Positions 4,036 through 52,360 of a stretch of DNA of 64,000 nucleotides are shown piece after piece. Both the position numbers and the translations under genes were made by a program. The notes below the pieces were generated by a model. It was not told the origin of the DNA, made no database searches, and was given only the letters and a program-made list of their open reading frames with translations. This DNA is from Cellulomonas sp. NS3 (GTDB taxonomy: Bacteria > Actinomycetota > Actinomycetes > Actinomycetales > Cellulomonadaceae): NCBI RefSeq assembly GCF_024757985.1, contig NZ_CP103289.1, forward strand, positions 2,542,001 to 2,606,000. The letters run 5' to 3'. How positions within the stretch are numbered: the first letter of the stretch is position 1; the number at the start of each line of letters is the position of its first letter.

Positions 4036-4077
4036 CTCCAGTTGCCGCTGAGCACGTCACCGCCGAGGCAACACACG

Positions 4078-4089
4078 GCAATCGGTTGC
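4078..4089. promoter_or_regulatory. Operator-like site GCAATCGGTTGC
   Basis: This is the third GCAA-N4-TTGC copy. Its centre is 54 bp from the centre of the copy at 4024-4035, close to five helical turns, which would suit cooperative binding or looping by a LacI-type dimer or tetramer. Further GGCAAC and GTTGCC half-sites lie between the two. Confidence 0.55.
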
Positions 4090-4184
4090 TGGGGCGACGA
4101 GGCGCTCCGTAGCGTCACGAGCACCGTCCTGTCGTCTCCGCTGCGGCTGCGACCCGCCCATCACGCTCCCCTGGAGGTCCGCCC

Positions 4185-4244
4185 ATGTGGGTCCTGTCCG
4201 GTCACGCCGGCGAGATCGCTCCCGACGCCGTGCCGTCCCGGTGA
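4185..4244 (+). CDS. 19-codon leader ORF or remnant of a TIM-barrel isomerase gene
   Basis: GGAGG (4173-4177) precedes an ATG at 4185 that opens MWVLSGHAGEIAPDAVPSR and then TGA at 4242-4244. Ten of the first 14 residues equal the N-terminus of the isomerase at 1818 (MWTLSGFADEIDPD), and 34 of 42 bases agree. The stop overlaps the GTG of the next gene as GTGA. That gene has no ribosome site of its own, so translational coupling is likely. It may be a decayed paralogue fused by deletion, now serving as a leader. Confidence 0.6.
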   Translation: MWVLSGHAGEIAPDAVPSR

Positions 4245-5350: not shown

Positions 5351-5446
5351 CTCCCCGCGTCCCCGGCCCCCACCCCGGCGGCCCCCGCGCGTGGCGGCTC
5401 GCTCGTCGAGGACCGTCCCGCACCCACCCCTCAGGAGGAGAACCTC

Positions 5447-6304
5447 GTGGCAACCATCGGCGTGCAGGCCAGCACGATCAAGAGCGCGTTCACCCAGCTC
5501 GGCACGTACGAGACCCTGCGGCGCGTCCGCGACCTCGGCTACCACGCCGTGGAGATCTCCCAGGTCGCGATGACCCCCGAGAACGTCGCCGCGATGCACC
5601 GCGCGCAGGACGAGCTCGGCGTCCGCATCGCCGCGCTGTCCGCGAGCCTGACGCCGCAGACGGTCGGCGCGGAGTCGCTGACGACGACGTTCGACAAGAT
5701 CGTCGACGACTGCCGGACCCTTGGCACCACGATGGTGCGGATCGGGATGCTGCCGCTCGAGGCGGCGGGCTCGCTGGGGCTCGTGACCGACTTCGCGGGC
5801 CGCGCGAACGAGGCGGCCGCGCAGCTCGCGGCGGAAGGCATCGACCTCTACTACCACAACCACCACATCGAGTTCGCGAAGCTCGACGGCCGCTTCATGC
5901 TCGACGTCATCGCCGACACCGCACCGGACCTCGGGATGGAGATCGACGTGCACTGGGTCCACCGTGGCGGGCAGGACCCCGTCACGACGCTCGCCCGGCA
6001 CGCGGGACGCGTGAAGCTCGTGCACCTCAAGGACTACCGGATCGGTCTGCTCCCGCCGACCGCCGCGGACCTGCTCGGCGCCGGCGACGTCGCCGGGTTC
6101 ATGCGCGAGTTCCGCGAGGTGGTGCAGTTCGCGGAGGTCGGGCAGGGGAACCTGGACTGGTCGCCCATCGTGGAGCAGGCGCTGGCGAGCGGCGCGGAGT
6201 ACCTGTTCGTCGAGCAGGACGACACCTACGGGCGCGACCCGTTCGAGTCCCTGCGGATGTCGCACGACCACCTGGTCGGGCTCGGGTACGCCGACCTCTT
6301 CTGA
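5447..6304 (+). CDS. Sugar phosphate isomerase/epimerase-fold TIM-barrel protein
   Basis: This 285-residue xylose-isomerase-like TIM barrel carries metal-ligand candidates YYHNHHIEF, EIDVHWVHRGG, LVHLKDY and FVEQDD in the order expected of the superfamily. The GTG start at 5447 follows AGGAGGAGAA (about 5433-5442). It differs strongly from the barrel at 1818, so the two may catalyse separate steps (elimination and hydration) between the two dehydrogenases. Expression probably continues from the dehydrogenase upstream, since the 96-bp gap holds no clear terminator. Confidence 0.82.
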   Translation: MATIGVQASTIKSAFTQLGTYETLRRVRDLGYHAVEISQVAMTPENVAAMHRAQDELGVRIAALSASLTPQTVGAESLTTTFDKIVDDCRTLGTTMVRIGMLPLEAAGSLGLVTDFAGRANEAAAQLAAEGIDLYYHNHHIEFAKLDGRFMLDVIADTAPDLGMEIDVHWVHRGGQDPVTTLARHAGRVKLVHLKDYRIGLLPPTAADLLGAGDVAGFMREFREVVQFAEVGQGNLDWSPIVEQALASGAEYLFVEQDDTYGRDPFESLRMSHDHLVGLGYADLF

Positions 6305-6388
6305 GCTGCGCGTCGCGTGCGCGCCGGCCCCGGGACCGCGACAGTGGTGCGCATGACGACGCACCCGGCCACACCCGCAGGAGGACCC

Positions 6389-7318
6389 GTGCTCACCCGT
6401 GACGACGTGCTCGCCGCCCAGGAGAGGATCCGCGGGCACGTCCGCCGCACGCCCGTGATCGCCGTGGACCCCGCCACCAGCAACTTGTGGCTCAAGTGCG
6501 AGTTCCTGCAGCTGGCAGGGGTGTTCAAGACGCGCGGGGCCGTCAACCGCATCCTCACCGGCCTCGAGACCGGCACCCTCGACCCCGCGATCGGCGTCGT
6601 CGCCGCGTCCGGCGGCAACGCCGGCCTCGCCCACGCCTACGCGGCCGCCCGGGTCGGGGTCGCCGCGACCGTCTTCGTCCCGCAGACCGCGCCCGCCGTC
6701 AAGGTCGCCCGGCTCCGCGAGTACGGGGCAACCGTGCGGCAGGTCGGACAGGAGTACGCCGAGGCGTACCTCGCGGCGGTCGACTTCGCCGGCACCGCGG
6801 GAGCACTGTTCTGCCACGCGTACGACCAGCCCGAGATCGCCGCCGGCGCCGGGACCATCGGCGAGGAGATCCTCACCGACGTCCCCGACGTCGACACCAT
6901 CGTCGTCGCCGTCGGCGGGGGCGGGCTCTTCGCCGGCATCGCCGCCGCAGCCGAGGGCCGCGCCCGGGTCGTGGCCGTCGAACCCGAGCGCATCCCCACC
7001 CTGCACAGCGCCCTGCAGGCCGGTCAGCCGGTCGACGTCGCCGTCTCCGGCGTCGCCGCCGACTCGCTGGGCGCCCGGCGCATCGGGAGCATCGCCTTCG
7101 ACGTCGCCCGACGCACCCGGCCGGTCAGCGTCCTCGTCGACGACGAGGCGATCCTGGCGGCCCGCACGGCCCTCTGGCAGGACCACCGCATGGCCGTCGA
7201 GCACGGCGCGGCCGCCGCCTACGCGGGGCTCACCAGCAACGCGTACCGGCCCGCACCGGACGAGCGGGTCGCCGTGGTGATCTGCGGCGCCAACACCGAC
7301 CCCGGCACCCTCGCCTGA
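6389..7318 (+). CDS. PLP-dependent serine/threonine dehydratase-family protein
   Basis: A fold-type II PLP enzyme of about 309 residues. The Schiff-base Lys lies in GVFKTRGAVNR (Lys47 from this start), SGGNAGLAHAYA contacts the cofactor, and the glycine-rich VGGGGLFAGIA loop binds the PLP phosphate. Such enzymes deaminate Ser/Thr or related hydroxy-amino acids to 2-oxo acids in the cytoplasm. I prefer GTG 6389 because AGGAGG (6379-6384) lies four bases before it; ATG 6353 in the same frame has no ribosome site and would add 12 residues. The substrate is uncertain, and a link to the preceding sugar genes is positional only. Confidence 0.82.
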   Translation: MLTRDDVLAAQERIRGHVRRTPVIAVDPATSNLWLKCEFLQLAGVFKTRGAVNRILTGLETGTLDPAIGVVAASGGNAGLAHAYAAARVGVAATVFVPQTAPAVKVARLREYGATVRQVGQEYAEAYLAAVDFAGTAGALFCHAYDQPEIAAGAGTIGEEILTDVPDVDTIVVAVGGGGLFAGIAAAAEGRARVVAVEPERIPTLHSALQAGQPVDVAVSGVAADSLGARRIGSIAFDVARRTRPVSVLVDDEAILAARTALWQDHRMAVEHGAAAAYAGLTSNAYRPAPDERVAVVICGANTDPGTLA

Positions 7319-9461: not shown

Positions 9462-10703
9462 ATGGACCGGTCCGAGCACGGCACCTGGTGGCACGTCTAC
9501 CCGCTGGGCTTCACGGGCGCGCCGATCCGCACGGCGCACGACGCGCAGCCCCGGCTGGCGCGCCTGACCGCGTGGCTCGACTACGCGGTCGAGCTCGGGG
9601 TCGGCGGCCTGCTGCTCGGCCCTGTCTTCAGCTCCGAGACGCACGGGTACGACAGCGTCGACCAGTACCGCATCGACCCCCGGCTCGGTGACCTCGCCGA
9701 CTTCGACGCGCTCGTGGCCGGCTGCCACGAGCGCGGCCTGCGCGTCGTGCTCGACGGGGTGTTCAACCACGTCGGCGCGGGGCACCCCTGGGTGCGCCGC
9801 GCGCTCGCGGAGGGGCCGGACGGTGAGTACGCCCGCTTCTTCCGGATCGACTGGTCCGACCCCCTCGCACCCCGGACCGCGGACTTCGAGGGCCACGCGT
9901 CGCTAGTCGCGCTCGACCACGACTCCCCCGCGGTGGCCGACTACGTCACCGACGTCATGACGACCTGGCTCGACCGGGGCGCCGACGGCTGGCGGCTCGA
10001 TGCCGCGTACGCGGTCCCGCCGCGGTTCTGGGCACAGGTGCTCCCGCGCGTGCGCGCCGCGCACCCGGACGCCTGGGTCCTGGGCGAGGTCATCCACGGC
10101 GACTACGCGGCGTTCGCCGCCGCCTCCGGCATCGAGTCGATCACGCAGTACGAGCTGTGGAAGGCGATCTGGAGCAGCCTCGCCGACCGGAACTTCTTCG
10201 AGCTCGACTGGGCGCTGACGCGTCACCTGCAGCTCGCGGAGGGACAGCTGCCGGCGACGTTCGTCGGGAACCACGACGTCACGCGCATCGCGACGACGGT
10301 CGGCGCGGAGGGCGCGGTGCTCGCGCTCGTCGTGCTGATGACCGTCTCCGGCGTGCCGACCGTCTACTACGGCGACGAGCAGGCGTTCACCGGCACCAAG
10401 GAGGAGCGCCTCGGCGGAGACGACGCGGTCCGCCCGGCGATGCCGGACTCCCCGGCGGAGCTCCCGCCCGGGGGCGCGTGGATGTTCCGGGTCCACCAGC
10501 AGCTCCTCGCGCTGCGGCGCAGCCACCCGTGGCTCGTGGACGCGGTGACCACGACCACCGGGCTGACGAACACGCGCTACGCCTACACGGCTCGCGCGCG
10601 CACGGGGCCGGGTGCACTGCACGTCGAGCTCGACGTGACCGACGGCCACCACGCCGTCGTGCGCAACGCGGCGGGCGCGACGCTCTTCGCGTACGACGCC
10701 TGA
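9462..10703 (+). CDS. GH13 alpha-amylase-family glycoside hydrolase
   Basis: A 413-residue cytoplasmic (no signal peptide) (beta/alpha)8 enzyme. The four GH13 regions are present: LDGVFNH (Asp98-His103), DGWRLDAAY with Arg178 and nucleophile Asp180, LGEVIHG with acid/base Glu209, and FVGNHDVT with Asp272. It should cleave or transfer alpha-glucosidic bonds in imported maltodextrin-like oligosaccharides. GGAGGAGG directly precedes the ATG. The TetR-type palindrome just upstream predicts tight ligand-dependent control. A GH3 enzyme follows 137 bp later with a different inverted repeat. Confidence 0.9.
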   Translation: MDRSEHGTWWHVYPLGFTGAPIRTAHDAQPRLARLTAWLDYAVELGVGGLLLGPVFSSETHGYDSVDQYRIDPRLGDLADFDALVAGCHERGLRVVLDGVFNHVGAGHPWVRRALAEGPDGEYARFFRIDWSDPLAPRTADFEGHASLVALDHDSPAVADYVTDVMTTWLDRGADGWRLDAAYAVPPRFWAQVLPRVRAAHPDAWVLGEVIHGDYAAFAAASGIESITQYELWKAIWSSLADRNFFELDWALTRHLQLAEGQLPATFVGNHDVTRIATTVGAEGAVLALVVLMTVSGVPTVYYGDEQAFTGTKEERLGGDDAVRPAMPDSPAELPPGGAWMFRVHQQLLALRRSHPWLVDAVTTTTGLTNTRYAYTARARTGPGALHVELDVTDGHHAVVRNAAGATLFAYDA

Positions 10704-10758
10704 TCTGCCCGGCAGCGCCAGACTGGGAGGATCGACCCGAGCGCAGGGAAAAGGCTTC

Positions 10759-10776
10759 ACTTACCAACAAGTAAGT
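10759..10776. promoter_or_regulatory. Inverted repeat ACTTAC-N6-GTAAGT before the GH3 gene
   Basis: Perfect 6-bp arms flank CAACAA in an AT-rich patch (10740-10790) that contrasts with the surrounding sequence. It resembles a TetR/AcrR-type operator and lies 65 bp before the GH3 start. The sequence differs from the palindrome at 9427, so a different regulator is implied. Confidence 0.5.
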
Positions 10777-10840
10777 AATAAAGTCGAGCGCCCGCGCCCG
10801 CCCGGCCGGCGACGAACCCGCACCGAACGAAGGAGCTGCC

Positions 10841-13141
10841 GTGACCGGCGCCCCCTACCAGGACCCGCAGCTGCCTGTCGAGCAGCGGGTCAAGGACCTC
10901 CTCGAGCGCATGACCCTGGCGGAGAAGGTCGGGCAGATGCTCCAGCTCGACGCCCAGGCGGACGTCCGGCCGCTCGTCGAGGACCTGCACGCGGGCTCGA
11001 TCCTGCACGCCGCGCCCGAGCAGGTGCTGCGCGCGCACGAGCTCACCGAGGGCACGCGCCTGCGCATCCCGTTGCTCGTGGCCGAGGACTGCATCCACGG
11101 GCACTCGTTCTGGCGCGGCGCGACGATCTTCCCGACGCAGCTCGCGATGGCCGCGTCCTGGGACCCGACGCTCGTCGAGCGGGTCGCGCGGATCACCGCC
11201 GTCGAGGTCGCCGCGACCGGCATCCACTGGACCTTCTCCCCCGTGCTCTGCATCGCGCGGGACCTGCGCTGGGGACGCGTCGACGAGACGTTCGGCGAGG
11301 ACCCGCTGCTCATCGGCGAGCTCGCGTCCGCGATGGTCCGCGGGTACCAGGGCGACGGGCTCGCCGACCCGACCGCGATCCTCGCGACGGCCAAGCACTT
11401 CGCGGGGTACTCCGAGACGCAGGGCGGGCGCGACGCGTCCGAGGCCGACATCTCGCGGCGCAAGCTGCGCTCGTGGTTCCTCCCGCCGTTCGAGCGCGTC
11501 GCCCGCGAGGGCTGCCGGACGTTCATGCTCGGCTACCAGACCATGGACGGCGTCCCGATCACGGTCAACGACTGGCTCCTCAGCGAGGTCCTGCGTGAGG
11601 AGTGGGGTTACACCGGAACCCTCGTGACGGATTGGGACAACGTCGGGCGGATGGTCTGGGAGCAGAAGGTCCAGCCCGACCACGCGCACGCGGCAGCCGC
11701 GGCGGTCCGGGCGGGCAACGACATGATCATGACGACGCCGCAGTTCTTCGAGGGCGCGCAGGAGGCCGTCGAGCTCGGCCTGATCGCCGAGCACGACCTC
11801 GACGCCGCCGTCGGGCGGATCCTCACCCTCAAGTTCGAGCTCGGGCTGTTCGAGGACCCGCGCCGGCCCGACCGGGCGCGCATCGCGGAGGTGGTCGGGG
11901 CCGACGAGCACACCGCCCTCAACCTCGAGGTGACCCGCCGGTCGCTCGTGCTCCTGCGCAACGACGGCGTGCTGCCGCTCGCCGGGGGCCACGCGCCGGG
12001 TGCCCCGACCGACGCCGCGGGCCGGGCCGTCGTGGACGGGCCCCCGCGCACGGTGGCCGTCGTGGGCCCGCTCGCCGACGACGCGCAGACCCAGCTCGGT
12101 GACTGGGCCGGGTCGTCCGGCCAGGCGGACTGGCTCCGCGACGGGCAGCCCCGCGAGATGATCACGACCGTCCTCGACGGCCTGCGCGCGCACGTGCCGG
12201 GCGCCTGGACGGTCACGCACGCCCCGGGCGCCGAGATCCTCAGCATCACGCCGGACCCCGAGGGACCGTTCTTCCCCGACGGCCAGCCCCGCCCGCCGCT
12301 CGTCGCACCGGCGACGCCGGACGAGCAGCTCCTCGCCGACGCCGTCGCGCTGGCCCGCGAGGCCGACTACGTCGTCGCGGTGGTCGGCGACCGCGTGGAG
12401 CTCGTCGGCGAGGGGCGCTCGACCGCGACGCTCGAGCTCGTCGGCAGCCAGGTCGCTCTCCTCGACGCGCTCGCCGCCACCGGCACCCCGCTCGTCGTGG
12501 TCCTGCTCGCCTCCAAGCCGCTCGTCCTGCCCGAGTCCGCGCTGCGCGCCGCGGCGCTCGTGTGGGTCGCCAACCCCGGGATGCAGGGCGGGCGCGCGGT
12601 CGCCGAGCTGCTGCTCGGCGTCGTCGAGCCGTCCGGTCGGCTCCCGATCTCGTTCGCGCGGCACGTCGGTCAGCAGCCGACGTACTACAACCAGATCCGG
12701 GGGCAGCACGGGACCCGCTACGCCGACCTCACGCAGCGCCCGGCGTTCGTCTTCGGCGAGGGCCTCTCATACAGCTCCGTCGAGTACGCGGGCCTGCGGC
12801 TCGACGCCGAGCAGGTCACCGCGGCGGACGTATTGCGCGGCGAGGTCACGGTGCGCAACACCGGCTCCCGGCCGGTGCGCGAGACCGTGCAGGTCTACGT
12901 GAGCGACACCGTGACGTCCGCGAGCTGGGCGGACCGCGAGCTCAAGGCGTTCACGCAGGTCGAGCTCGCGCCGGGCGAGACGCGCGCGGTCACGCTCGAG
13001 CTCCCGGTCCGGGACTGCACGATCGTCGACGCGCACGGCCGCCGGGTCGTCGAGCCGGGCGCGTTCGAGCTGCTCGTCGGGGCGTCGTCGCGCCCGGAGG
13101 ACCTTCTGAGGGTCGCGTTCACCGTGCGTGCGGGCGACTGA
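10841..13141 (+). CDS. GH3 beta-glucosidase-type glycoside hydrolase
   Basis: A 766-residue GH3 enzyme without a signal peptide. The N-terminal TIM barrel contains AKHFAGYSETQGGRD and the nucleophile Asp264 in LVTDWDNVGRM. The alpha/beta sandwich domain spans about residues 350-600, with GEGRSTATLEL likely contributing the acid/base region. A C-terminal fibronectin-III-like domain starts near ETVQVYVSD. It should release glucose or xylose from beta-linked oligosaccharides in the cytoplasm. GTG 10841 follows GAAGGAG. It is probably regulated through the inverted repeat at 10759-10776. Confidence 0.92.
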   Translation: MTGAPYQDPQLPVEQRVKDLLERMTLAEKVGQMLQLDAQADVRPLVEDLHAGSILHAAPEQVLRAHELTEGTRLRIPLLVAEDCIHGHSFWRGATIFPTQLAMAASWDPTLVERVARITAVEVAATGIHWTFSPVLCIARDLRWGRVDETFGEDPLLIGELASAMVRGYQGDGLADPTAILATAKHFAGYSETQGGRDASEADISRRKLRSWFLPPFERVAREGCRTFMLGYQTMDGVPITVNDWLLSEVLREEWGYTGTLVTDWDNVGRMVWEQKVQPDHAHAAAAAVRAGNDMIMTTPQFFEGAQEAVELGLIAEHDLDAAVGRILTLKFELGLFEDPRRPDRARIAEVVGADEHTALNLEVTRRSLVLLRNDGVLPLAGGHAPGAPTDAAGRAVVDGPPRTVAVVGPLADDAQTQLGDWAGSSGQADWLRDGQPREMITTVLDGLRAHVPGAWTVTHAPGAEILSITPDPEGPFFPDGQPRPPLVAPATPDEQLLADAVALAREADYVVAVVGDRVELVGEGRSTATLELVGSQVALLDALAATGTPLVVVLLASKPLVLPESALRAAALVWVANPGMQGGRAVAELLLGVVEPSGRLPISFARHVGQQPTYYNQIRGQHGTRYADLTQRPAFVFGEGLSYSSVEYAGLRLDAEQVTAADVLRGEVTVRNTGSRPVRETVQVYVSDTVTSASWADRELKAFTQVELAPGETRAVTLELPVRDCTIVDAHGRRVVEPGAFELLVGASSRPEDLLRVAFTVRAGD

Positions 13142-42127: not shown

Positions 42128-43456
42128 ATGCCCCCGCGCTGGACCGTCGAGCAGGCGCTCGCGCTCGCCCCCGACGCGTCCTCGGCGACCGCCGGGCGGA
42201 AGCTCGCGACGTCGGGCACGTGGACCTCCACGGGTGCCTCGCCGGGCGCCGTGTGGGGGCTGTGCGCGGGCTCGGGCACGACGCCCTACCAGACCGTCGT
42301 CGACCTCACCGAGCCCGCGTTCAGCTGCTCGTGCCCGAGCCGGAAGTTCCCGTGCAAGCACGCGCTCGCGCTGCTCCTGCGGTGGGCCGGCGGCGAGGTC
42401 GACGAGCACGGCGAGCCTGCCGACTTCGCCGCGACGTGGCTCGAGGCCCGGGCCGCGCGGGCTGCGCGCAGCGCGGGACGTGCCGAGGTCCGCGCCGACC
42501 GCGCCCCGGCGGACCCGCGTGCCGCCGGGCGGCGCGCGGAGCAGCGCGAGCAGCGCGTCTCGGCCGGCGTCGCCGAGCTCGAGCGCTGGCTGCGCGACCA
42601 GGTCCGCACCGGTGTGGCGTCGGCCGACACCGCGGGCTACGCCCTGACCGACCCCGTGGCCGCCCGGCTCGTCGACGCGCAGGCGCCCGGGCTGGCCGCG
42701 GCCGTGCGCCGGCTCGCGTCCGTCGCGGCGTCGGGCGAGGGCTGGCCCGGACGTCTCCTCGAGGAGCTCGCCCTGGTGCACCTGCTGACGACCGCGCACG
42801 GCCGGATCGACGAGCTCCCCGAGGACCTCGCGGCCACGGTGCGGACGCGCGTCGGCGCGACCGTCCGCACGGAGGACGTGCTCGCGGGGCCGCCCGTGCG
42901 GGACCGCTGGGACGTGCTGGCGCTCCGGGACTCCTCGGACGGGCGGCTCACGACCCGGCGCGTGCACCTGCGCGGGGCCACGACGGGCCGCGACGCGCTC
43001 GTGCTGTCCTTCGCCGGGCCCGGTCAGGCGCTCGACGTCTCGCTCGTGCCGGGGACGTCCCTCGATGCGGACCTGCACTTCTACCCGGGCGCGCTCCCGC
43101 TGCGTGCGGTGATCGGCGCGCGGCACGGCGAACCGGGCCCGCTGTCGGCGGTCGCGGGCAGCGGCGTGCGGGCCGCGCTCGACGCGTGGGCGCACGCGCT
43201 CGCCGCGGACCCGTGGACGAGCGACCTGCCCGTCGTGCTCGGCGACGTGCGCGTGGTCCCGGCCCCCGACGGGGCACCGGACGGCTGGCTCGTCGCGGAC
43301 GCGACCGGCGACGCGCTCCCGCTCGTGCCCGCGCCCGGGCTGTGGACGGTCCTCGCCGTCGCGGGTGGTGACCCCGTGACCCTCGTCGGGGCCCTCACCC
43401 CGCGCGGGGTCCGTGCCGAGTCGGTCCTCGCCGACGGCGCACCGGTGCCGGCATGA
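42128..43456 (+). CDS. SWIM zinc-finger protein, first gene of a five-gene cassette
   Basis: A 442-residue protein. The SWIM motif C67-x-C69-x6-C76-x-H78 (CSCPSRKFPCKH) follows a conserved lead (GRKLATSGTW, WGLCAGSGTTPYQT). SWIM domains bind zinc and mediate DNA or protein contacts. The remainder is helical with no enzymatic motif I recognise. It opens an operon with DUF5691, MoxR, DUF5682 and VWA proteins; its stop overlaps the next start as ATGA. This proteins' role in the cassette is unknown; substrate recognition or scaffolding is possible. Confidence 0.83.
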   Translation: MPPRWTVEQALALAPDASSATAGRKLATSGTWTSTGASPGAVWGLCAGSGTTPYQTVVDLTEPAFSCSCPSRKFPCKHALALLLRWAGGEVDEHGEPADFAATWLEARAARAARSAGRAEVRADRAPADPRAAGRRAEQREQRVSAGVAELERWLRDQVRTGVASADTAGYALTDPVAARLVDAQAPGLAAAVRRLASVAASGEGWPGRLLEELALVHLLTTAHGRIDELPEDLAATVRTRVGATVRTEDVLAGPPVRDRWDVLALRDSSDGRLTTRRVHLRGATTGRDALVLSFAGPGQALDVSLVPGTSLDADLHFYPGALPLRAVIGARHGEPGPLSAVAGSGVRAALDAWAHALAADPWTSDLPVVLGDVRVVPAPDGAPDGWLVADATGDALPLVPAPGLWTVLAVAGGDPVTLVGALTPRGVRAESVLADGAPVPA

Positions 43457-45213
43457 GCACCGTCCCGCCCCGCGGCACGGCGCCCGGAAGCACCCCGCGC
43501 GGGGACGCCCGGGTCGCCGGGACCGGAGGTGCCGCGCCCGTGGAGACGCCGCCCGCCGGCCACGGGGGCCACACCGGTGCGCTGGACTGGGACGACCTCG
43601 TGACCTCCGCGCTGCTCGGGGTGGCGCGGAGGCCGGTCGACCTCGCGACCCTCCCCGGTGAGGTCGGCCGCCTCGCGGCGACGCTTCCGGGCACCGACGC
43701 CCCCGGGCGCCTGCTCCACGCCGCAGCGCTCCTGACCGCGCAGCGGCGCGCGGGCACCGGCCCGCTCCCTGCCCCGCCGCCCGTGCCCGCCGCGCCGCAC
43801 GAGAGCGCGCCGGTCGCCTCGCATGCCGCCGGAGGGCGGCTCGCAGGGCTCCTCGCACGGACCGACGCGCTCGCGGAGCGGCTCGTCGACGAGTGGCTCG
43901 CCCTCGCCGCGAGCCACGGCCGGCTCGCTCCGCCCGCCCTGCTGCCGCGCCTCCTGGACTGGGCGAGCGCGCGCGGTGAGCGCGGAGAGGTCCGGCGCGA
44001 CCGTGCCGAGCGCGTGGCGCCCGTGCTCGGTGAGCGCGGCCGGTGGCTCGCCGGGCACCGAGCCGAGTGGGCGGCGGTGACGCGTGACGCCTCCGGCGCG
44101 GCGCCGTCCACCCCGTCCGACGGCGCGAGCTCGGAGGCCTCGGGGCACGGCGCCGCCGGCGGCGAGGCCGTCGCCGCCGGCAGCACCGACGGGTCCACCC
44201 CCGTGGCCGGTGACGCCTGGACCCGCGGGACGGCCGCGGAGCGTCGCGACCGCCTCGTCGCCGTGCGCCGGAGCGACCCGGCTGCTGCGCGCGCCATGCT
44301 GCTCGCCGCGGGCCCGTCGACGCTCCGGGGCGAGGAGCGCGCCCAGCTCTACGGCGTCCTCGCCGACGGCCTGCAGCCCGCGGACGAGGAGCTGCTCGAG
44401 CGCGCCCTCGACGACGCCCGCCAGGACGTGCGGACCGTCGCGGCGGCGATGCTGCGGCGGCTGCCGGGCAGCGCCCAGGCCGCCCGCGCCGCGGCACGTG
44501 CCGTCCCGCTCGTGCACGTCGAGCGGCGGCGGCTGCGGCGGGTGCTCGTCGTCGACCTGCCCGAGGTCGACCCCGGGGACCGGGACGACCGGGCGCTGCC
44601 CCCGGCGCCGTCCGGCACCGGCGCGCGCGTGTGGCTCCTGCGCCACCTCGTCCTCGCCACGCCGCTGCGCGCCTGGGAGGACGCGCTCGACGCCGCGCCC
44701 GACGAGCTCGTCGCGCTCCCCGTCGCCGACGACCTGCGCGGCCAGCTGCGCGCCGGCTGGCTCGGCGCCACCCGCGACCAGGCCGACGCGCGCTGGGCCC
44801 GGGCGCTCCTGCGCGACGCCGACCACGGCGAGCGGGTCGCGCTGCTCCCGGTCCTCGGCGTCCAGGAGCGCGCGGAGCACGTCGCCGCCGCGGTCGACGC
44901 GCTCGCGCAACAGGGCGGGCGGGCGGCGCTCACGCACGTGGACGCGCTGCTGGGCACCTGCCCGCGGCCGTGGCCCCCCGTGCTCACCGCCGCGGTGCTT
45001 CGCTGGCTCGCGGGCGAGCGCTCGACGGACACGTGGCACGCCGACTGGGCGCTGCGGACGGTCGCGATGCGCCTGCCCACGGACACCGCCAGCGAGGACG
45101 CCGTGCGGGCCGCGGGGCTCGCGCGCGCCGACGACGACCCCTGGCGTGCGCGCGTCCTGACCGTCGCCGACACGCTGCACGACCGACGCCACATGACCGA
45201 GGAGCTCCGTTGA
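43453..45213 (+). CDS. DUF5691-type helical-repeat protein
   Basis: A 586-residue protein. DWDDLVTSALLGVARRPVDL opens the conserved region. From about residue 275, short helical units such as DEELLERALDDARQDVRTVA look like HEAT repeats, a protein-interaction scaffold. An Ala/Gly/Ser-rich linker lies near residues 205-250. No catalytic motif is seen. Family name is recalled from its recurrent company with SWIM, MoxR and VWA genes rather than from a search. It overlaps both neighbours (ATGA in, TTGA out). Confidence 0.7.
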   Translation: MSTVPPRGTAPGSTPRGDARVAGTGGAAPVETPPAGHGGHTGALDWDDLVTSALLGVARRPVDLATLPGEVGRLAATLPGTDAPGRLLHAAALLTAQRRAGTGPLPAPPPVPAAPHESAPVASHAAGGRLAGLLARTDALAERLVDEWLALAASHGRLAPPALLPRLLDWASARGERGEVRRDRAERVAPVLGERGRWLAGHRAEWAAVTRDASGAAPSTPSDGASSEASGHGAAGGEAVAAGSTDGSTPVAGDAWTRGTAAERRDRLVAVRRSDPAAARAMLLAAGPSTLRGEERAQLYGVLADGLQPADEELLERALDDARQDVRTVAAAMLRRLPGSAQAARAAARAVPLVHVERRRLRRVLVVDLPEVDPGDRDDRALPPAPSGTGARVWLLRHLVLATPLRAWEDALDAAPDELVALPVADDLRGQLRAGWLGATRDQADARWARALLRDADHGERVALLPVLGVQERAEHVAAAVDALAQQGGRAALTHVDALLGTCPRPWPPVLTAAVLRWLAGERSTDTWHADWALRTVAMRLPTDTASEDAVRAAGLARADDDPWRARVLTVADTLHDRRHMTEELR

Positions 45214-46334
45214 CCACCACCCCTCAGGCCACGCCCGCCGACGCGGACGGCGCCGACGCGCTCCTGCGCCCGCACGCCGAGCAGGCGTTCGCCCACGAGC
45301 TCGCGGCGCTCGCCGCGCACGACGACCGGCCGCGTCCGCCCGCCTGGCTGCTCTCCCCCCGCGCCGTGGTGACGTACCTGCTCGGCGGGACGCTCGGTGA
45401 CGGGACGGTGATCACCCCCAAGTACGTCGGGCCGCGCCGGCTCGTCGAGGTGGCGGTCGCCACGCTCGCGACCGACCGGGCGCTGCTCCTCCTGGGCGTC
45501 CCCGGGACGGCCAAGACGTGGGTCAGCGAGCACCTCGCGGCCGCGGTCAGCGGCCGGTCCACGCTGCTCGTCCAGGGCACCTCGGGCACCGGGGAGGACG
45601 CGATCCGGTACGGCTGGAACTACGCCCGGCTGCTCGCCGAGGGCCCGACCCCCGCCGCGCTCGTCCCCTCCCCGGTGATGACCGCGATGCGCGAGGCGAA
45701 GATCGCGCGCGTCGAGGAGCTCACCCGGATCCCGTCCGACGTCCAGGACGCGCTCATCACGGTGCTCTCGGAGAAGTCGCTCCCGGTGCCCGAGCTCGGG
45801 ACGGAGGTGCAGGCAGCCAAGGGCTTCAACGTCATCGCGACCGCGAACGACCGCGACCGCGGCGTCAACGAGCTGTCCTCGGCGCTGCGCCGCCGGTTCA
45901 ACACCGTCGTCCTCCCGCTGCCCGCGACCGAGCAGGAGGAGGTCGAGATCGTCACGCGGCGCGTCGCACAGCTGGGTGCGGCGCTCGAGCTGCCGCCCGT
46001 CCCGGCCGCCGCCGAGGAGATCCGCCGTGTGGTGACCGTGTTCCGGGAGCTGCGCTCGGGCCGCACCCTCGACGGGCGCACGACGCTCAAGCAGCCGTCG
46101 GGCACGCTCTCGACCGCGGAGGCCATCTCGGTCGTCACGCAGGGGCTCGCCCTGGCGGCGCACTTCGGCGACGGGACGCTCCAGCCGTCGGACATCGCCG
46201 CGGGGATCGTCGGCTCGGTCGTCAAGGACCCCGTCGCCGATCGCGCGGTGTGGTTCGAGTACCTCGAGGCGGTCGCCCGCGAGCGCGAGGGGTGGCACGA
46301 CTTCTACGCCGCGTGCCGCGAGGTCAGCGGATGA
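45210..46334 (+). CDS. MoxR-type AAA+ ATPase
   Basis: A 374-residue AAA+ protein. Walker A is GVPGTAKT (96-103). The Walker B position reads RVEEL (Glu169-Glu170) followed by TRIPSDVQDALITVLSEK, where MoxR proteins usually have DE-x-N-R. Sensor 1 is FNVIATAND, and the lid domain follows SALRRRFN. MoxR ATPases partner with VWA proteins to remodel or load metals onto targets, as in RavA-ViaA and chelatases. The start is TTG 45210, with GAGGAG upstream and a TTGA overlap. The final ATGA overlaps the DUF5682 gene. Confidence 0.88.
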   Translation: MTTTPQATPADADGADALLRPHAEQAFAHELAALAAHDDRPRPPAWLLSPRAVVTYLLGGTLGDGTVITPKYVGPRRLVEVAVATLATDRALLLLGVPGTAKTWVSEHLAAAVSGRSTLLVQGTSGTGEDAIRYGWNYARLLAEGPTPAALVPSPVMTAMREAKIARVEELTRIPSDVQDALITVLSEKSLPVPELGTEVQAAKGFNVIATANDRDRGVNELSSALRRRFNTVVLPLPATEQEEVEIVTRRVAQLGAALELPPVPAAAEEIRRVVTVFRELRSGRTLDGRTTLKQPSGTLSTAEAISVVTQGLALAAHFGDGTLQPSDIAAGIVGSVVKDPVADRAVWFEYLEAVAREREGWHDFYAACREVSG

Positions 46335-48739
46335 CCGTCGCCCCGGTCGCGGGCGCGGGCCCGACCACGGGTGCGGGGGCGGGCGCGCCCGTCGTCGAGG
46401 TCATGGGCGTGCGGCACCACGGCCCCGGCTCGGCACGTGCCGTGCGCGCGGCGCTCGACCGCCTGCAGCCGGACGTCGTGCTGGTCGAGGGCCCGGCCGA
46501 CGCCGACCCGCTCGCCGCCCTCGCCGGCGACCCGGAGCTCGTGCCGCCGGTCGCGATGCTGGCGTACGCGAACGACGACCCCGCCACGGCCGTCTTCTGG
46601 CCGTACGCGGTGTTCTCCCCCGAGTGGCAGGCGCTGCACTGGGCGGCCGAGCACGGCGTGCGCGTGCGCTTCTGCGACCTGCCGTCGGGCGCGGTGCTCG
46701 GGCGGGCGACCCGGGGCGACGGGACGACCACACCGCCCGACCCGCCGGAGCTCCCCGGCGCGGCCGAGGATCCTGGCACATCCGGCACCCCCGACGCACC
46801 CGAGGACCCGGGCGCAGCAGACGCTCCCGACGCGCCCGCCCTCGCCGACGCACCCGGGCCCACGGACGAGCCCGGGGAGGACGCCGCCGCGCTGCGCCGC
46901 GACCCGCTCGCCGCGCTCGCCGCAGCAGCGGGCTACGACGACCCGGAGCGGTGGTGGGACGACGTCGTCGAGCACCGGCTCGAGTCCCCCACGCCGTTCC
47001 CGGTGCTCGCGGAGGCGATGGCCGAGCTGCGGCGGACCGCGGAGCCGCTGCCCCCCGAGCGGCAGGCGCACGAGGACCGCCGTGAGGCGTACATGCGCCA
47101 GACGCTGCGCGCGGAGCTGCGTGCGGGCGCACGGCGGGTCGCGGTCGTGTGCGGCGCGTGGCACGCCCCGGCGCTCGACGGGACGCTCCCGCCCGCTGCG
47201 GCCGACACCCGGGTGCTTCGAGGGCTGCCGCGCCGGCCGACGTCGGTCACGTGGGTGCCGTGGACGTCCTCGCGGCTCGCATCCGCTTCGGGGTACGGCG
47301 CGGGCATCACGTCCCCCGGCTGGTACCACCACCTGTTCGCGGCCCCGGACCACGTCGTCGCGCGGTGGCTCACGCGCGTCGCGGGCGTGCTGCGCGCGGA
47401 GGACCTGCCGGTCTCGTCGGCGCACGTGATCGAGGCGGTGCGGCTCGCCGAGACGCTCGCGACGCTGCGCGGGCGCCCGCTCGCCGGGCTCGACGAGGTC
47501 ACGGAGGCGACGCGCGCGGTGCTGTGCGAGGGCGACGACGCGGTCCTGGCGCTCGTGACGGCCCGGCTCGTCGTCGGCGAGGCGCTCGGCACGGTCCCCG
47601 AGTCGGTGCCGACGGTCCCGCTCGCGAGCGACCTGCGCGCGACCGCCCGGCGCCTGCGGCTCAAGGTCGAGCCGCTCGCCCGCACGCTCGAGCTCGACGT
47701 CCGCGAGGACACCGACCGCGAGCGGTCCCGTCTGCTGCACCGCCTGCGCGTCCTCGGCGTCGACTGGGGGGTGCCGGCAGCCGCGACCCGGCGGAGCACG
47801 GGGACGTTCCGTGAGCCGTGGACGCTCGTGTGGCGCCCGGAGCTCGCGGTCGCGGTCGTCGAGGCCGCGCTGTGGGGCACCACGGTCGAGGCCGCGGCGG
47901 GTGCGCGGCTCGGGGCCGCGGCCGGGCAGGCGTCGCTCGCGGGGCTCACCCGGCTCGTCGAGGACGCCCTGCTGGCGGACCTGCCCGCGGCGATGACGCC
48001 GCTCCTGGCCGCGCTCGACGCGCGCGCCGCGCACGACGTCGACGTGGTGCACCTCATGACGGCGCTGCCCCCGCTGGTGCGCGCGTACCGCTACCCGGGC
48101 GTGCGCGGGGTGGACGTCGTGCAGATCGGGCGCGTCGCGGACGCGCTGCTGGTGCGGGTGTGCGCCGCGCTGCCGTCCGCCGTCACGGCGCTCGACGACG
48201 ACGCGGCCCGCGAGCTGCGCACCGCGCTCGACGCCGTGCACGACGCGGTGCTGCTGCGCGAGGAGGCCGTGGGCGGCGAGCTCTGGTGGTCGGCGCTCGC
48301 GTCGCTCGCCGACCGGGACGACGTCTCCGGGGTCCTCGCGGGCCGCGCCACGCGCCTGCTACGGGACGGGGGCCGGCTCGACGACGCCCCGGTGCGGCTG
48401 GAGCGCGCGCTGTCGGTGGGTGCCCCGGCACCGGCCAAGGCCGCGTGGGTCGAGGGCTTCCTCGACGGCGGCGGGCTCCTGCTCGCGCGCGACGACGAGC
48501 TGCTCGGGGTCCTCGACGCCTGGCTCACGGGGCTCCCGGAGCGGGACTTCACGGACGTGCTCCCGCTGCTGCGCCGCACGTTCGGCGCCCTGTCGGCGCC
48601 GGAACGGCGTGCCGTCGGGCAGGCGGCGGCGCGCGGGCCCCGCACGACGCCCGACGCCGCGGCGACGACCGGCCTGGACGAGACCCGCGCGCTGCCGGCG
48701 CTGCGCACCGTCACGACGATCCTCGGAGGGCACCCGTGA
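46331..48739 (+). CDS. DUF5682 protein with TraB/TIKI-like GxxH motifs
   Basis: An 802-residue protein. The N-terminal domain has Gly26-Val-Arg-His29 (GVRHHGPGSARAV), Glu53 in VLVEGPADAD and Gly275-Ala-Trp-His278 in VVCGAWHAPAL. This GxxH...E...GxxH layout is that of TraB/TIKI and related ChaN/EreA hydrolases. A Pro/Asp/Ala linker sits near residues 140-180. GYGAGITSPGWYHHLF follows, then a long helical C-terminal half. Hydrolase activity is my inference; the family has no assigned function. It overlaps MoxR (ATGA) and VWA (GTGA) genes. Confidence 0.7.
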   Translation: MTVAPVAGAGPTTGAGAGAPVVEVMGVRHHGPGSARAVRAALDRLQPDVVLVEGPADADPLAALAGDPELVPPVAMLAYANDDPATAVFWPYAVFSPEWQALHWAAEHGVRVRFCDLPSGAVLGRATRGDGTTTPPDPPELPGAAEDPGTSGTPDAPEDPGAADAPDAPALADAPGPTDEPGEDAAALRRDPLAALAAAAGYDDPERWWDDVVEHRLESPTPFPVLAEAMAELRRTAEPLPPERQAHEDRREAYMRQTLRAELRAGARRVAVVCGAWHAPALDGTLPPAAADTRVLRGLPRRPTSVTWVPWTSSRLASASGYGAGITSPGWYHHLFAAPDHVVARWLTRVAGVLRAEDLPVSSAHVIEAVRLAETLATLRGRPLAGLDEVTEATRAVLCEGDDAVLALVTARLVVGEALGTVPESVPTVPLASDLRATARRLRLKVEPLARTLELDVREDTDRERSRLLHRLRVLGVDWGVPAAATRRSTGTFREPWTLVWRPELAVAVVEAALWGTTVEAAAGARLGAAAGQASLAGLTRLVEDALLADLPAAMTPLLAALDARAAHDVDVVHLMTALPPLVRAYRYPGVRGVDVVQIGRVADALLVRVCAALPSAVTALDDDAARELRTALDAVHDAVLLREEAVGGELWWSALASLADRDDVSGVLAGRATRLLRDGGRLDDAPVRLERALSVGAPAPAKAAWVEGFLDGGGLLLARDDELLGVLDAWLTGLPERDFTDVLPLLRRTFGALSAPERRAVGQAAARGPRTTPDAAATTGLDETRALPALRTVTTILGGHP

Positions 48740-49944
48740 GCGAGACCGGCACGACCGTCGACGAGGCCGGACGCCTGCGCCGGTGGCGCCTCGTGCTGGG
48801 CCCCGCGGGCGAGCCCTGGGGGGCTCCGCTGCGCGGGGGCGACGCGGCGATGGACGCCGCCCTGGCGGCGCTCTACGACGCCGACGACGGCTCGGCAGCA
48901 CGCCCGGGTGGTGGCGGTCCGCGGGGGGCGGGGCTCGGATCGTCGGCGCCCCGCGTCGCCCGCTGGCTCGGCGACATCCGCACGTACTTCCCGAGCACCG
49001 TGGTGCAGGTCATGCAGCGCGACGCAGTCGACCGGCTGAACCTGCGCCAGCTGCTGCTCGAGCCCGAGCTGCTCGGGGCCGTCGAGCCGGACGTGAGCCT
49101 GGTCGGGACCCTGCTCTCGCTCAACCGCGTGATGCCGGAGACGACGCGGGCGACCGCGCGGCAGGTGGTCGCGTCCGTCGTCGCGGAGGTCGAGCGGCGG
49201 GTCGCCGACCGGACGCGGTCGGCCGTCGCGGGCGCGCTGGACCGGACCAGCCGCACGCACCGTCCCCACCTGCGCGACGTCGACTGGGACGCCACGATCC
49301 GTGCGAACCTGCGGCACTACCTGCCCGAGCACCGCACGGTCGTGCCGGAGCGCCTCGTGGGCCACGGCCGCCGGCGCCAGGTCGTCGCACGTGACGTCGT
49401 GCTCGCGATCGACCAGTCGGGCTCGATGGCGGAGTCGGTCGTCTACGCCTCGGTGTTCGGGGCGGTGCTCGCGTCGATGCGCGCGCTGTCGACCTCGCTC
49501 GTGGTGTTCGACACCGAGGTCGTCGACCTGACCCCCCTGCTCGCCGACCCGGTCGACGTGCTGTTCGGGACCCAGCTCGGCGGCGGGACGGACATCAACC
49601 GTGCCGTCGCGTACTGCCAGGGGCTCGTCCGCCGGCCGGCGGACACGCTGCTGGTCCTGGTCAGCGACCTGTACGAGGGCGGCGTGCGGGACGAGCTGCT
49701 GCGCCGGGTCGCGGACCTGACCGCGGCCGGCGTGCAGGTCGTCGTGCTCCTCGCCCTGTCGGACTCCGGTGCGCCGTCGTACGACCGGGAGAACGCCGCC
49801 GCCCTCGTCGAGCTCGGCGTCCCGGCGTTCGCGTGCACACCGGACGCGTTCCCCGACCTGCTCGCCGTCGCGCTCGCCCGCGGTGACGTCGGGTCGTGGG
49901 CGGAGCGGGCGTTCGCCCCGGGGGCCGCGGCGCCGCGCCGCTGA
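48736..49944 (+). CDS. VWA-domain protein (CoxE/ViaA-like)
   Basis: A 402-residue protein. The C-terminal von Willebrand A domain has a complete MIDAS: D226-Q-S228-G-S230 (AIDQSGSM), Thr285 in GGGTDIN and Asp311 in VSDLYEGG. The N-terminal half (about 1-215) is helical, with YFPSTVVQVMQRDAVDRLNLRQLL. It is the expected partner of the MoxR ATPase three frames upstream. It is the last gene of the cassette; a hairpin at 50047-50088 lies after it. Confidence 0.88.
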   Translation: MSETGTTVDEAGRLRRWRLVLGPAGEPWGAPLRGGDAAMDAALAALYDADDGSAARPGGGGPRGAGLGSSAPRVARWLGDIRTYFPSTVVQVMQRDAVDRLNLRQLLLEPELLGAVEPDVSLVGTLLSLNRVMPETTRATARQVVASVVAEVERRVADRTRSAVAGALDRTSRTHRPHLRDVDWDATIRANLRHYLPEHRTVVPERLVGHGRRRQVVARDVVLAIDQSGSMAESVVYASVFGAVLASMRALSTSLVVFDTEVVDLTPLLADPVDVLFGTQLGGGTDINRAVAYCQGLVRRPADTLLVLVSDLYEGGVRDELLRRVADLTAAGVQVVVLLALSDSGAPSYDRENAAALVELGVPAFACTPDAFPDLLAVALARGDVGSWAERAFAPGAAAPRR

Positions 49945-50113: not shown

Positions 50114-50158
50114 CAGGTCAGCTCAGGTCAGGTAACGTCACGTCACGTCACGTCACCA
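50114..50158. repeat. Short tandem TGACG/TGACC-type repeats spanning the subtilase stop codon
   Basis: On the plus strand, TCAGG and CAGGTCA-like units are followed by four consecutive CGTCA units. On the coding (minus) strand the stop TGA at 50155-50153 is the first of several TGACG pentamers, then TGACC units. Because units are five bases, stops occur in all frames. Confidence 0.6.
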
Positions 50159-51997
50159 GCCGAGCTGGATCGTGTACGCGCCGGCCCCGCCGCCGTAGTA
50201 GGTGGTGCGGGCGTAGTACGTGGCCGGCGAGGTGCCGGTGTTGCGCACGGACGCGGTGTCGACCCGTCCGGCCCCGAGCCGGCTGCTGGCGAGCGCCGAG
50301 CTGCCCGACCCGTAGAGGTACAGGTCGTAGTCCGCGGCGCTCGACCCCGGGGTCAGGCGCACGGTGAGCGTCGCCCCGGCCGGGACCTGGACCGCGAAGT
50401 AGTCGGTGTCGGTGCTCGACCCCATCGTGGCCGCCAGCGTGCCCGGCGCCCCGACGGCGTTCGCGGCGCTGCGGGTGTTGTTCGGCTCGACCTCGCTCGT
50501 GCCCACCGGCGGGGTGGTCGGCGGCGGCGTCGGGTTGGTGCCACCCACGGCGGCCCGGACGGCGGCGTTCGCGTCGACCATGCCCGCGCCGCAGCTCGAG
50601 CAGGTCGCGACGAACGGGCGCGCGGTCGACTTGAGCGTGCTCTCGACCTGGTCGGGCGTGAGCGAGGGGTTCGCGGCCAGGACGAGGGCGGCCGCCGCGG
50701 CGACGTGGGGCGTCGCCATGGAGGTGCCCTGGTAGTACGCGTACGAGTCGCTGCCGGGTCCCGCCGTGCCCGTGTTGAGCGTCGAGAGGATCCCGCGGGT
50801 CTGCCCGCCGCTCATCTCGCCACCGGGCGCCGCGACGTCCACGAGCGTGCCGTAGTTCGAGTAGGACGCCCGGGCGCCCGTCGGGCCGTACGCGGCGACG
50901 GCGATGACCCCCGAGCAGTTCGCCGGGCTCGAGTTGGACACGTTGCGGTTCTCGTTGCCCGCCGCGACGACGACGACAGCGCCGTTCGCGCGCGCGGCCG
51001 TGATGGCGCGCTGGCTCGTGGTGTCGCAGGTGCCGCTGCCGCCGAGCGAGAGGTTGAGGACGCGGGCGCGGTTCTCGTTCGCCGGGACGCCGCTGACCGA
51101 GCCGCCGGACGCCCAGATCATCGCGTCGGCGATGTCCGAGGTGTAGCCGCCGCACCTCCCGAGCACGCGCAGGGGGACGATCTTGGAGGCCGGCGCGGCT
51201 CCCGCGACGCCGGCGCCGTTGCCGGCGACGGCGGAGATGGTGCCCGCGACGTGGGTCCCGTGCCAGGAGGACGTCGTCGCGCCCCGTCCAGCGACGCACT
51301 CGTTGGCTGCGGTCCAGTCACCGGGGTCGCTCGCGTCGCCGTCCCGGCCGTTGCCGTCGTTCGACACCCCGGTGTCGGTGATCAGGTCGTACCCGCCGAC
51401 GACGGCCCCGGCCAGGTCCGCGTGCGGGCGGACGCCGGTGTCGATGACGGCGACGTTGACGCCCGCACCGCGGGTGACGTCCCAGGCGCCGAGCACGCCG
51501 ATGCCGACGCTGCTCGTCTGGAGGCCCCACAGGTCGGACCACCGGGGGTCGTTCGGCGCGGCGGCCGAGGGCTGCAGCAGGCGGTCCGGCTCGGCGTACT
51601 CGACGCCCGCGTCCTCCGCGGCGACCTGGGCGGCGAGAGCCTCGACGTCGGCGAGCGGGAGCGGGGCGGACAGCGCCCAGACCTGGGCGCCCTGGGCGGT
51701 GTCGCGCACGTACTCGGCGGCGGCGCCGCGGGCCTCGGCGGCGCGCGCGATCCGGTCGCGGCGACCGGACTGGACGTCGTCGGTCGCGCCGGCACCCAGC
51801 GGCTGGGTGCGGTAGCGCACGATCAGCCGGTCGGTGCCGGGCACGCTCGCCGTGGCGTCCACGGACGGCGCCGACGCGTCCGGGGCGACGCCCTCGGTCG
51901 TCGCGGCGACGGCCTGCGGGGCCAGCGCCCAGGACGACGCCAGGAGCACGCCGGCGGCGAGGGCCGCCACGGGGCGCGTCGTGAAGGTGTGCTGCAT
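50153..51997 (-). CDS. Secreted S8 subtilisin-like serine protease with PPC domain
   Basis: A 614-residue preproenzyme. Signal peptide about residues 1-31 (hydrophobic VAALAAGVLLASSWALA, then QAVA). An inhibitor-I9-like propeptide (TDRLIVRYR) is followed by the catalytic domain with Asp186 (VIDTGVRPH), His246 (WHGTHVAGT), oxyanion Asn in AAGNEN and Ser426 (GTSMATPHVAAA). A Thr/Pro linker leads to a C-terminal pre-peptidase PPC domain (VEPNNTRSAANAV, DTDYFAVQVPAG). It is an exported protease. The ATG at 51997 gives the signal peptide at the N-terminus; the longer frame to 52117 would bury it. Confidence 0.94.
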   Translation of the reverse strand: MQHTFTTRPVAALAAGVLLASSWALAPQAVAATTEGVAPDASAPSVDATASVPGTDRLIVRYRTQPLGAGATDDVQSGRRDRIARAAEARGAAAEYVRDTAQGAQVWALSAPLPLADVEALAAQVAAEDAGVEYAEPDRLLQPSAAAPNDPRWSDLWGLQTSSVGIGVLGAWDVTRGAGVNVAVIDTGVRPHADLAGAVVGGYDLITDTGVSNDGNGRDGDASDPGDWTAANECVAGRGATTSSWHGTHVAGTISAVAGNGAGVAGAAPASKIVPLRVLGRCGGYTSDIADAMIWASGGSVSGVPANENRARVLNLSLGGSGTCDTTSQRAITAARANGAVVVVAAGNENRNVSNSSPANCSGVIAVAAYGPTGARASYSNYGTLVDVAAPGGEMSGGQTRGILSTLNTGTAGPGSDSYAYYQGTSMATPHVAAAAALVLAANPSLTPDQVESTLKSTARPFVATCSSCGAGMVDANAAVRAAVGGTNPTPPPTTPPVGTSEVEPNNTRSAANAVGAPGTLAATMGSSTDTDYFAVQVPAGATLTVRLTPGSSAADYDLYLYGSGSSALASSRLGAGRVDTASVRNTGTSPATYYARTTYYGGGAGAYTIQLGW

Positions 51998-52360
51998 CAG
52001 GGTCTGCCTCTCGGCTGCGTGGGGTGCGGACGTCGTACTGCGCGGGTCCCGACCGGTCGGGATGTCGCTCCGGTGCGACGTGCGACTCACGGTAAACATG
52101 GCCATGACTCCGGTCAAGGGCGTAAGTTACTCCGCGGTACACCGTCGACGGAGACGGCCGGGTCACCCCCGGGGAGCCCGCCGAGGACGCCTCGTGCGCG
52201 CCCACGAGCGGCTCGTCGCACGAGCCCCGCGGCGCACCCGCACGCCGACGAGCCGCCGCCCGGATGCGGCGCACAGCACGCGCCCCGACGATGGCCGGGT
52301 GCGTCAGGACACGTCGCGCACGCACCTGGGGCCGACGAGGCCCCCGCGGGAGGGGTCGAC
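51998..52360. other. Divergent intergenic region of 363 bp
   Basis: It separates the subtilase (minus) from the thiamine-diphosphate enzyme (plus). It contains the subtilase promoter candidate at 52089-52117 and a less GC-rich patch around 52085-52140. I see no credible ORF, RNA or repeat in the remainder. Confidence 0.6.
52089..52117 (-). promoter_or_regulatory. Sigma-70-like promoter for the subtilase
   Basis: On the minus strand a -35 element TTGACC (52117-52112) and a -10 element TACCGT (52094-52089) are 17 bases apart. This would start transcription about 80-90 bases before the ATG at 51997. Confidence 0.5.

Follow-up and report, generated by a model that had tools for sequence, protein, structure and literature searches.

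A five-gene Cellulomonas locus joins a YehL-type MoxR, VWA and DUF5682 core to an exchangeable SWIM-DUF5691 module

Analysis of a 64,000-nucleotide stretch of the genome of Cellulomonas sp. NS3 (contig NZ_CP103289.1, positions 2,542,001 to 2,606,000; hereafter the window, with positions counted from its first letter) revealed a cassette of five forward-strand genes whose products all exceed the curated Pfam cut-offs; an NCBIfam scan of the same products gave zero matches at its cut-offs. The first gene (42128–43456) encodes a SWIM zinc-finger protein of 442 amino acids (aa; Pfam SWIM, 30.4 bits against a cut-off of 19.6) and is followed by genes for a 586-aa DUF5691 protein (43453–45213; Pfam DUF5691, 365.6 bits), a 374-aa YehL-type MoxR AAA+ ATPase with a TTG start (45210–46334; Pfam AAA_5, 131.6 bits), an 802-aa DUF5682 protein (46331–48739; Pfam DUF5682, 899 bits) and a 402-aa VWA_CoxE protein (48736–49944; PF05762 at residues 158–372, 178.1 bits). 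Neighbouring genes share 4-base overlaps at all four junctions (ATGA at 43453, TTGA at 45210, ATGA at 46331 and GTGA at 48736). An earlier note on this DNA had described these five reading frames with their positions, families and overlaps, all of which were borne out by sequence and Pfam. The host genome, a single 4.78-Mb contig, encodes four other MoxR proteins besides that of the locus, and the closest named relative among the matches listed is a locus of Cellulomonas alba (MoxR 88% identical).

The earlier note had named rare co-occurrence of the five families as the outcome that would speak against a common system; co-occurrence and gene order were compared in relatives on that basis, and the families were found to co-occur, and not rarely. 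Among the best 80 named loci of at least 574 relatives retrieved with a MoxR profile, a sample ranked by MoxR similarity that consequently favours this locus type, DUF5682 was present in 80/80, SWIM in 78, DUF5691 in 75 and VWA in 74, every gap lying no further than about 300 bases from where a contig ends. Gene order was that of the window in 23 loci, the commonest layout (32/80) had SWIM-DUF5691 divergent from MoxR-DUF5682-VWA, a further 13 carried SWIM and DUF5691 fused in one open reading frame (ORF), and the remaining 12 mostly contained truncated or overlapping ORFs. A less biased sample was obtained by searching 296 actinobacterial genomes, that of the window included, for the families, which detected DUF5682 in 21 genomes and DUF5691 above the cut-off in 18; in 18/18 of the latter, no more than 3.4 kb separated DUF5691 from DUF5682 (hypergeometric P = 4.7e-26, three further genomes with a sub-cut-off DUF5691 match and no DUF5682 being left out of the count). 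DUF5682 occurred without DUF5691 in three genomes (G160, G240 and G295). In loci selected by DUF5682 (n = 38, window included), MoxR was adjacent in 37, the lone gap beginning at a contig end, and VWA was adjacent in 34; two of the four VWA-less loci are halves of a gene whose other half shows the VWA, and in the other two it appears once a longer stretch is taken. With DUF5682 additionally fused to VWA in two loci (type D, below), conserved content, order and fusions across genomes support the earlier proposal that a MoxR/VWA pair underlies a single system of several genes.

The overlaps themselves had been taken to imply fixed stoichiometry, a conclusion that they do not support. Across the same-strand junctions of the 80 related loci, a start producing a −4 overlap is possible at 27/55 SWIM/DUF5691, 21/25 DUF5691/MoxR, 45/78 MoxR/DUF5682 and 42/71 DUF5682/VWA junctions, and at 13/13 junctions where a fused SWIM-DUF5691 gene adjoins MoxR, all of these counts being upper bounds as starts giving −4 were preferred wherever possible. 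The TTG start recurs at 3/21 overlapping DUF5691/MoxR junctions and is thus not conserved. Because SWIM-DUF5691 is often transcribed divergently from MoxR-DUF5682-VWA, fixed stoichiometry is unsupported, and the 4-base overlaps say less than the gene content and order do.

Content and order alike reappear in phyla that lie far apart, which is more than chance. The set was found in Deinococcota, Alphaproteobacteria, Bacteroidota and Chloroflexota, with all five families in order on plasmids of Deinococcus (L155), where a small unnamed gene (6744–6980) separates MoxR from DUF5682, and of Methylosinus (L158), whose VWA gene is interrupted, with its parts in three frames. The split covers three ORFs at 10202–11370 in this Methylosinus trichosporium record, whose incomplete gene table lists none there. 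On a Rhizobium plasmid (L156) the families are ordered likewise, SWIM being divided between two overlapping ORFs (4075–5483), while a Hymenobacter plasmid (L154) carries a fused SWIM-type::DUF5691 gene, to which the Pfam SWIM model itself gives no match, and a small unnamed gene (6350–6961) between MoxR and DUF5682. BLAST matched all five families in an unannotated Methylobacterium locus (L160) and detected SWIM, MoxR, DUF5682 and VWA, but not DUF5691, in a Fusobacterium record; Chloroflexi and Anaerolineales bins (L114 and L144, two of the 80 loci) have the gene order of the window. The MoxR, DUF5682 and VWA core is also present on a 14-kb faecal contig deposited as bacteriophage (L159, 1–14207), for which the phage assignment is a label only. 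Since related sets recur in such distant bacteria, the job of the cassette is probably a general one.

A three-gene core of this kind is already annotated in Escherichia coli as yehL-yehM-yehP, labelled uncharacterised or putative. The earlier interpretation, supported in part, overlooked both this known core and the membership of its MoxR in the YehL subfamily. In E. coli K-12 the row reads yehI (DUF4132), yehK, yehL (MoxR), yehM (DUF5682), yehP (VWA) and yehQ (SWIM), and thus shares the core order MoxR-DUF5682-VWA with the window and adds a SWIM protein after VWA. Unlike the window, the E. coli cluster has a DUF4132 protein in place of DUF5691, a family that a search of the E. coli control genome did not detect. 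The cassette proteins are 42% identical to YehL over 360 aa, 27% to YehM over 607 aa and 38% to YehP over 368 aa; similarity of the SWIM and DUF5691 products to YehQ (E 0.77) and YehI was non-significant. DNA of yehL-yehQ (at least 80% of the query, intactness of the copies unscored) occurs in 5162/5426 complete E. coli genomes, and the core is therefore no patchy island there. In the literature searched, which included few subscription papers, no dedicated study of the yeh genes was found among the matches listed, and the mentions in the portions available were incidental.

Comparison of the loci distinguished four types. Among the relatives of the window, type A (SWIM, DUF5691) comprises three loci (L011, L012 and the window) and type B five; the type B loci examined, E. 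coli among them, have a DUF4132 gene ahead of MoxR and a SWIM-like gene behind VWA in 8/8 cases. Type C (L164, L165, L166) is transcribed VWA-MoxR-DUF5682, and type D (L167, L169) has DUF5682 and VWA in one ORF, with a DUF4132 gene in L169 and its relative in L167. Several sets may reside in one genome, as in G020 (A and B) and G060 (A, C and a third divergent, untyped copy). Because types A to D share only the core, the invariant unit is YehL-type MoxR, VWA and DUF5682, and SWIM-DUF5691 is an exchangeable module. Two more conserved genes without a Pfam match lie upstream of VWA in the type C loci (463 and 221 aa in L164), and type D loci encode, upstream of MoxR, a conserved protein roughly 1600 aa long that likewise has no Pfam match (L167, 1475–6526; L169, 11755–16509).

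The MoxR protein carries sequences that we take to be Walker A (GVPGTAKT), a Walker-B-like motif (VEELTR), sensor 1 (ATAN) and an arginine-finger region (ALRRRF). These motor motif patterns are kept in 80/80 relatives, and in 80/80, as well as in E. coli YehL, the Walker B reads EE, not the usual DE (Glu for Asp). In a MoxR tree the window protein groups with YehL and is separated from RavA and from the host's four further MoxR proteins, with moderate support (90/91) for the branch to the RavA and MoxR-proper rows; two remote AAA_5 rows with very long branches were placed unreliably among the YehL-type rows. YehL is a named subfamily of MoxR ATPases in the available part of PMC3893208. Both the grouping with YehL and the adjoining DUF5682 and VWA genes, seen in the window, in E. 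coli and in loci with enough flank, assign the window MoxR to this type, within which it differs by sitting in a seven-row group of its own from DUF5691 loci (support 100/99). RavA-ViaA is likewise a MoxR/VWA gene pair, but it is flanked by asnA and kup, not by DUF5682, and membership there was rejected, as the window proteins gave a 25-residue match to RavA (E 0.095) and a 26% match over the VWA domain.

In the VWA partner, the metal ion-dependent adhesion site (MIDAS) is intact (DQSGSM, GGGTD and SDLYEGG); its patterns occur in 72 or 73 of 74 VWA relatives, with D.SGSM in 73/74. The VWA_CoxE domain and this motif are those of the CoxE/NorD-type VWA partners. The earlier note had seen no known effector nearby; on the VWA protein itself there is no effector domain, the VWA domain ending at residue 372 of 402 in Pfam. 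A match to Amidohydro_2 at residues 307–391 (27.8 bits against 26.4) overlaps the VWA domain and was judged spurious.

The SWIM protein contains the zinc-ligand motif CxCPSRxxPCKH at residues 67–78, and C67, C69, C76 and H78 are invariant in a 14-sequence alignment that includes the window. Median identities in relatives fall from MoxR (79%) over VWA (68%), DUF5682 (52%) and SWIM (49%) to DUF5691 (34.1%, 75 loci), the fastest-evolving member of the cassette. From these sequence comparisons we infer that the fast change of SWIM and DUF5691 relative to MoxR is what would be expected of a target-choosing module.

DUF5682, present in every locus type, consists of an N-terminal alpha/beta domain (about residues 18–340) and a mostly helical, HEAT-like C-terminal half. 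An alignment of 18 diverse sequences, the others being 22–63% identical to the window protein, revealed 31 invariant columns, of which 22 fall within residues 1–340 (naive binomial P 0.001); nine of these 22 are charged or His: H29, E53, E98, D116, E214, R234, R251, E252 and H278. The hydrolase-like motif set ascribed to this protein in the earlier note is thus real as conservation, and its invariant residues suggest a candidate hydrolase. The AlphaFold2 model (mean predicted local distance difference test score 84.1) shows alternating strands and helices in the N-domain at high confidence, with H29 after strand 21–27, E53 inside strand 49–55 and H278 after strand 269–275, while residues 443–769 returned fold matches to helical-repeat proteins. 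The earlier note had called DUF5691 HEAT-like; in the model of DUF5682, the protein that was folded, this label suits the C-terminal half. TIKI hydrolases carry a 2His/2Glu set with an ExH after a core strand, a Glu about 28 residues on and a late His (available part of PMC6254334). In DUF5682, H29, E53 and H278 (18/18) are placed like this His-Glu pair and late His; however, two residues before H29 there is Val or Ile in 18/18, not the ExH glutamate of TIKI. Of the parallel beta-sheet core with helices on either face that also marks TIKI hydrolases, the model gives no more than the alternation of strands and helices, the fold search having been taken up by the helical half. DUF5682 was not filed as a TIKI enzyme, because the ExH Glu is absent, the profile test described below failed and ChaN-family matches stayed at chance level.

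On this basis we tentatively propose, at somewhat less than an even chance, that the five genes form one ATP-driven machine in which the MoxR-VWA motor switches or remodels DUF5682 and SWIM-DUF5691 chooses the targets. For NorQD, a motor-plug mechanism of the MoxR/VWA pair has been proposed (available part of PMC9976466). By analogy with that model, the VWA protein would sit as a plug in the MoxR hexamer and grip a partner through its MIDAS metal, with ATP hydrolysis acting on that grip. The permanent partner of MoxR-VWA would be DUF5682, because it was never seen without the pair where flank sufficed and shares one ORF with VWA in type D; the motor may switch or remodel its hydrolase-like His/Glu/Asp/Arg site, which would sit on the HEAT-like helical scaffold. 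SWIM-DUF5691 would bring the target, perhaps nucleic-acid-bound or a protein client recognised by the zinc finger, and the overall role would more probably lie in conserved maintenance or the response to stress than in defence against phages. NorQ/NorD is a MoxR and VWA pair with a MIDAS, as here, but its client is known, namely nitric oxide reductase. To our knowledge, partners of the DUF5682, SWIM and DUF5691 families are not part of the NorQ/NorD system.

Several results weigh against the proposed machine. Helical repeats filled the fold search with the full DUF5682 model, so that the N-domain was barely probed, and the type D sequences were left out of the invariance alignment. Comparison of the N-domain with 7 erythromycin-esterase-like proteins gave an hhalign probability of 0.1%, and ChaN-family matches, obtained for 2/18 members at E of about 0.1, correspond to chance. 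DUF5682 could be a target or stator instead of an enzyme, and among the relatives of the window it is patchy, occurring in 7/39 genomes, its own included. A further-reaching form of the proposal, possible but doubtful, is that DUF5682 founds a new class of AAA+-gated hydrolases, in which MoxR-VWA would open or close a site made up of H29, E53, E98, D116, R251, E252 and H278, with SWIM/DUF5691 or DUF4132 as interchangeable modules that would direct it to different targets.

If DUF5682 were not the enzyme, the machine might remodel a client encoded elsewhere, which we consider rather unlikely. The single DUF5682-VWA polypeptide of the two type D loci, a layout as in NorD, for whose N-domain a role is suggested (available part of PMC9976466), would fit such a function, as would the HEAT-like helical half and the lack of a profile link from DUF5682 to a known hydrolase; however, invariance of the seven residues named above is more typical of a catalytic or metal site than of a scaffold. 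Distinctly unlikely is a chaperone that loads metals or cofactors, in the manner of NorQD, CoxD/CoxE and the chelatases, into a metalloenzyme encoded elsewhere. The VWA_CoxE family, the NorQD precedent and the zinc-finger subunit point in this direction, and yehM is among the genes mutated in copper-evolved E. coli, although as a list entry only in the available part of PMC12409786. Few flanking genes could be named, and among these no recurring cofactor enzyme or dedicated metalloenzyme substrate was seen: of the nine flanking ORFs of two loci scanned, four received a Pfam name, none that of a cofactor enzyme, and the other loci looked at were four annotated plasmid loci, in one of which genes for a ferredoxin and a desaturase lie some 2 kb upstream, on the opposite strand. 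Inspection of the window ORFs by eye, without a library scan, showed no chelatase substrate near the cassette.

The available part of PMC7159879 describes MoxR-vWA-centric ternary systems (VMAP, iSTAND and others) of MoxR, vWA and a third component, and the large DUF5682 protein next to MoxR and VWA resembles this arrangement. That the cassette is a conflict or anti-phage system of this ternary kind is nevertheless very improbable in our judgement. For it speak the narrow passing of the Pfam bpMoxR model by the MoxR protein (28.6 against a cut-off of 27), the patchiness in relatives (7/39) and the core on the one phage-labelled contig. PADLOC 2.0.0, however, yielded no full-model match, just two short hits of 30 residues each, to IetA (E 0.0056 and 0.012); an effector expected C-terminal to vWA is lacking on the cassette VWA; the third component of the ternary systems is VMAP, iSTAND or a beta-propeller, whereas here solely DUF5682 was matched in Pfam; and the word SWIM is absent from the main text of PMC7159879. 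DUF5682 is moreover rare in plasmid records (16/72,556) and phage records (1/50,697), and the chromosomal flanks are shared, with 34 of the 80 actinobacterial loci having a left-flank gene in common and 33 the right-flank genes (sides counted separately). In a Streptomyces example, the left flank encodes a UvrD/PcrA-type helicase, with an M23 peptidase, and the right flank carries a pair of CoA-ligase genes. Shared flanks and prevalence in E. coli (5162/5426 genomes with yehL-yehQ DNA) are the setting of a resident gene set. In the window, the cassette is followed by a convergent ORF (50153–52117, reverse strand) which, judged by eye from its motifs, presumably encodes a secreted subtilisin-type protease. 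An ordinary operon whose genes have unrelated functions, for which it may be said that short overlaps are generally common in compact GC-rich operons, has next to no likelihood given the fusions, the exclusive co-occurrence and the conservation across phyla despite rearrangement, and it is contradicted by the proximity of DUF5691 to DUF5682.

In the literature searched, mostly without subscription papers, no paper was found that mentions DUF5682 or DUF5691, or that brings MoxR, a SWIM domain and vWA together. MoxR/VWA pairs are understood in few cases, and the YehL subfamily is now tied to an obligate DUF5682 partner and to exchangeable modules. The question of what yehL, yehM, yehP and yehQ do, and whether YehM is an enzyme, thereby becomes testable, and the seven invariant DUF5682 residues offer direct targets for mutation. 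If the proposal is true, AAA+-gated DUF5682, which is without description in the papers found, would constitute a conserved enzyme switch under ATP control, in E. coli as in many other bacteria.

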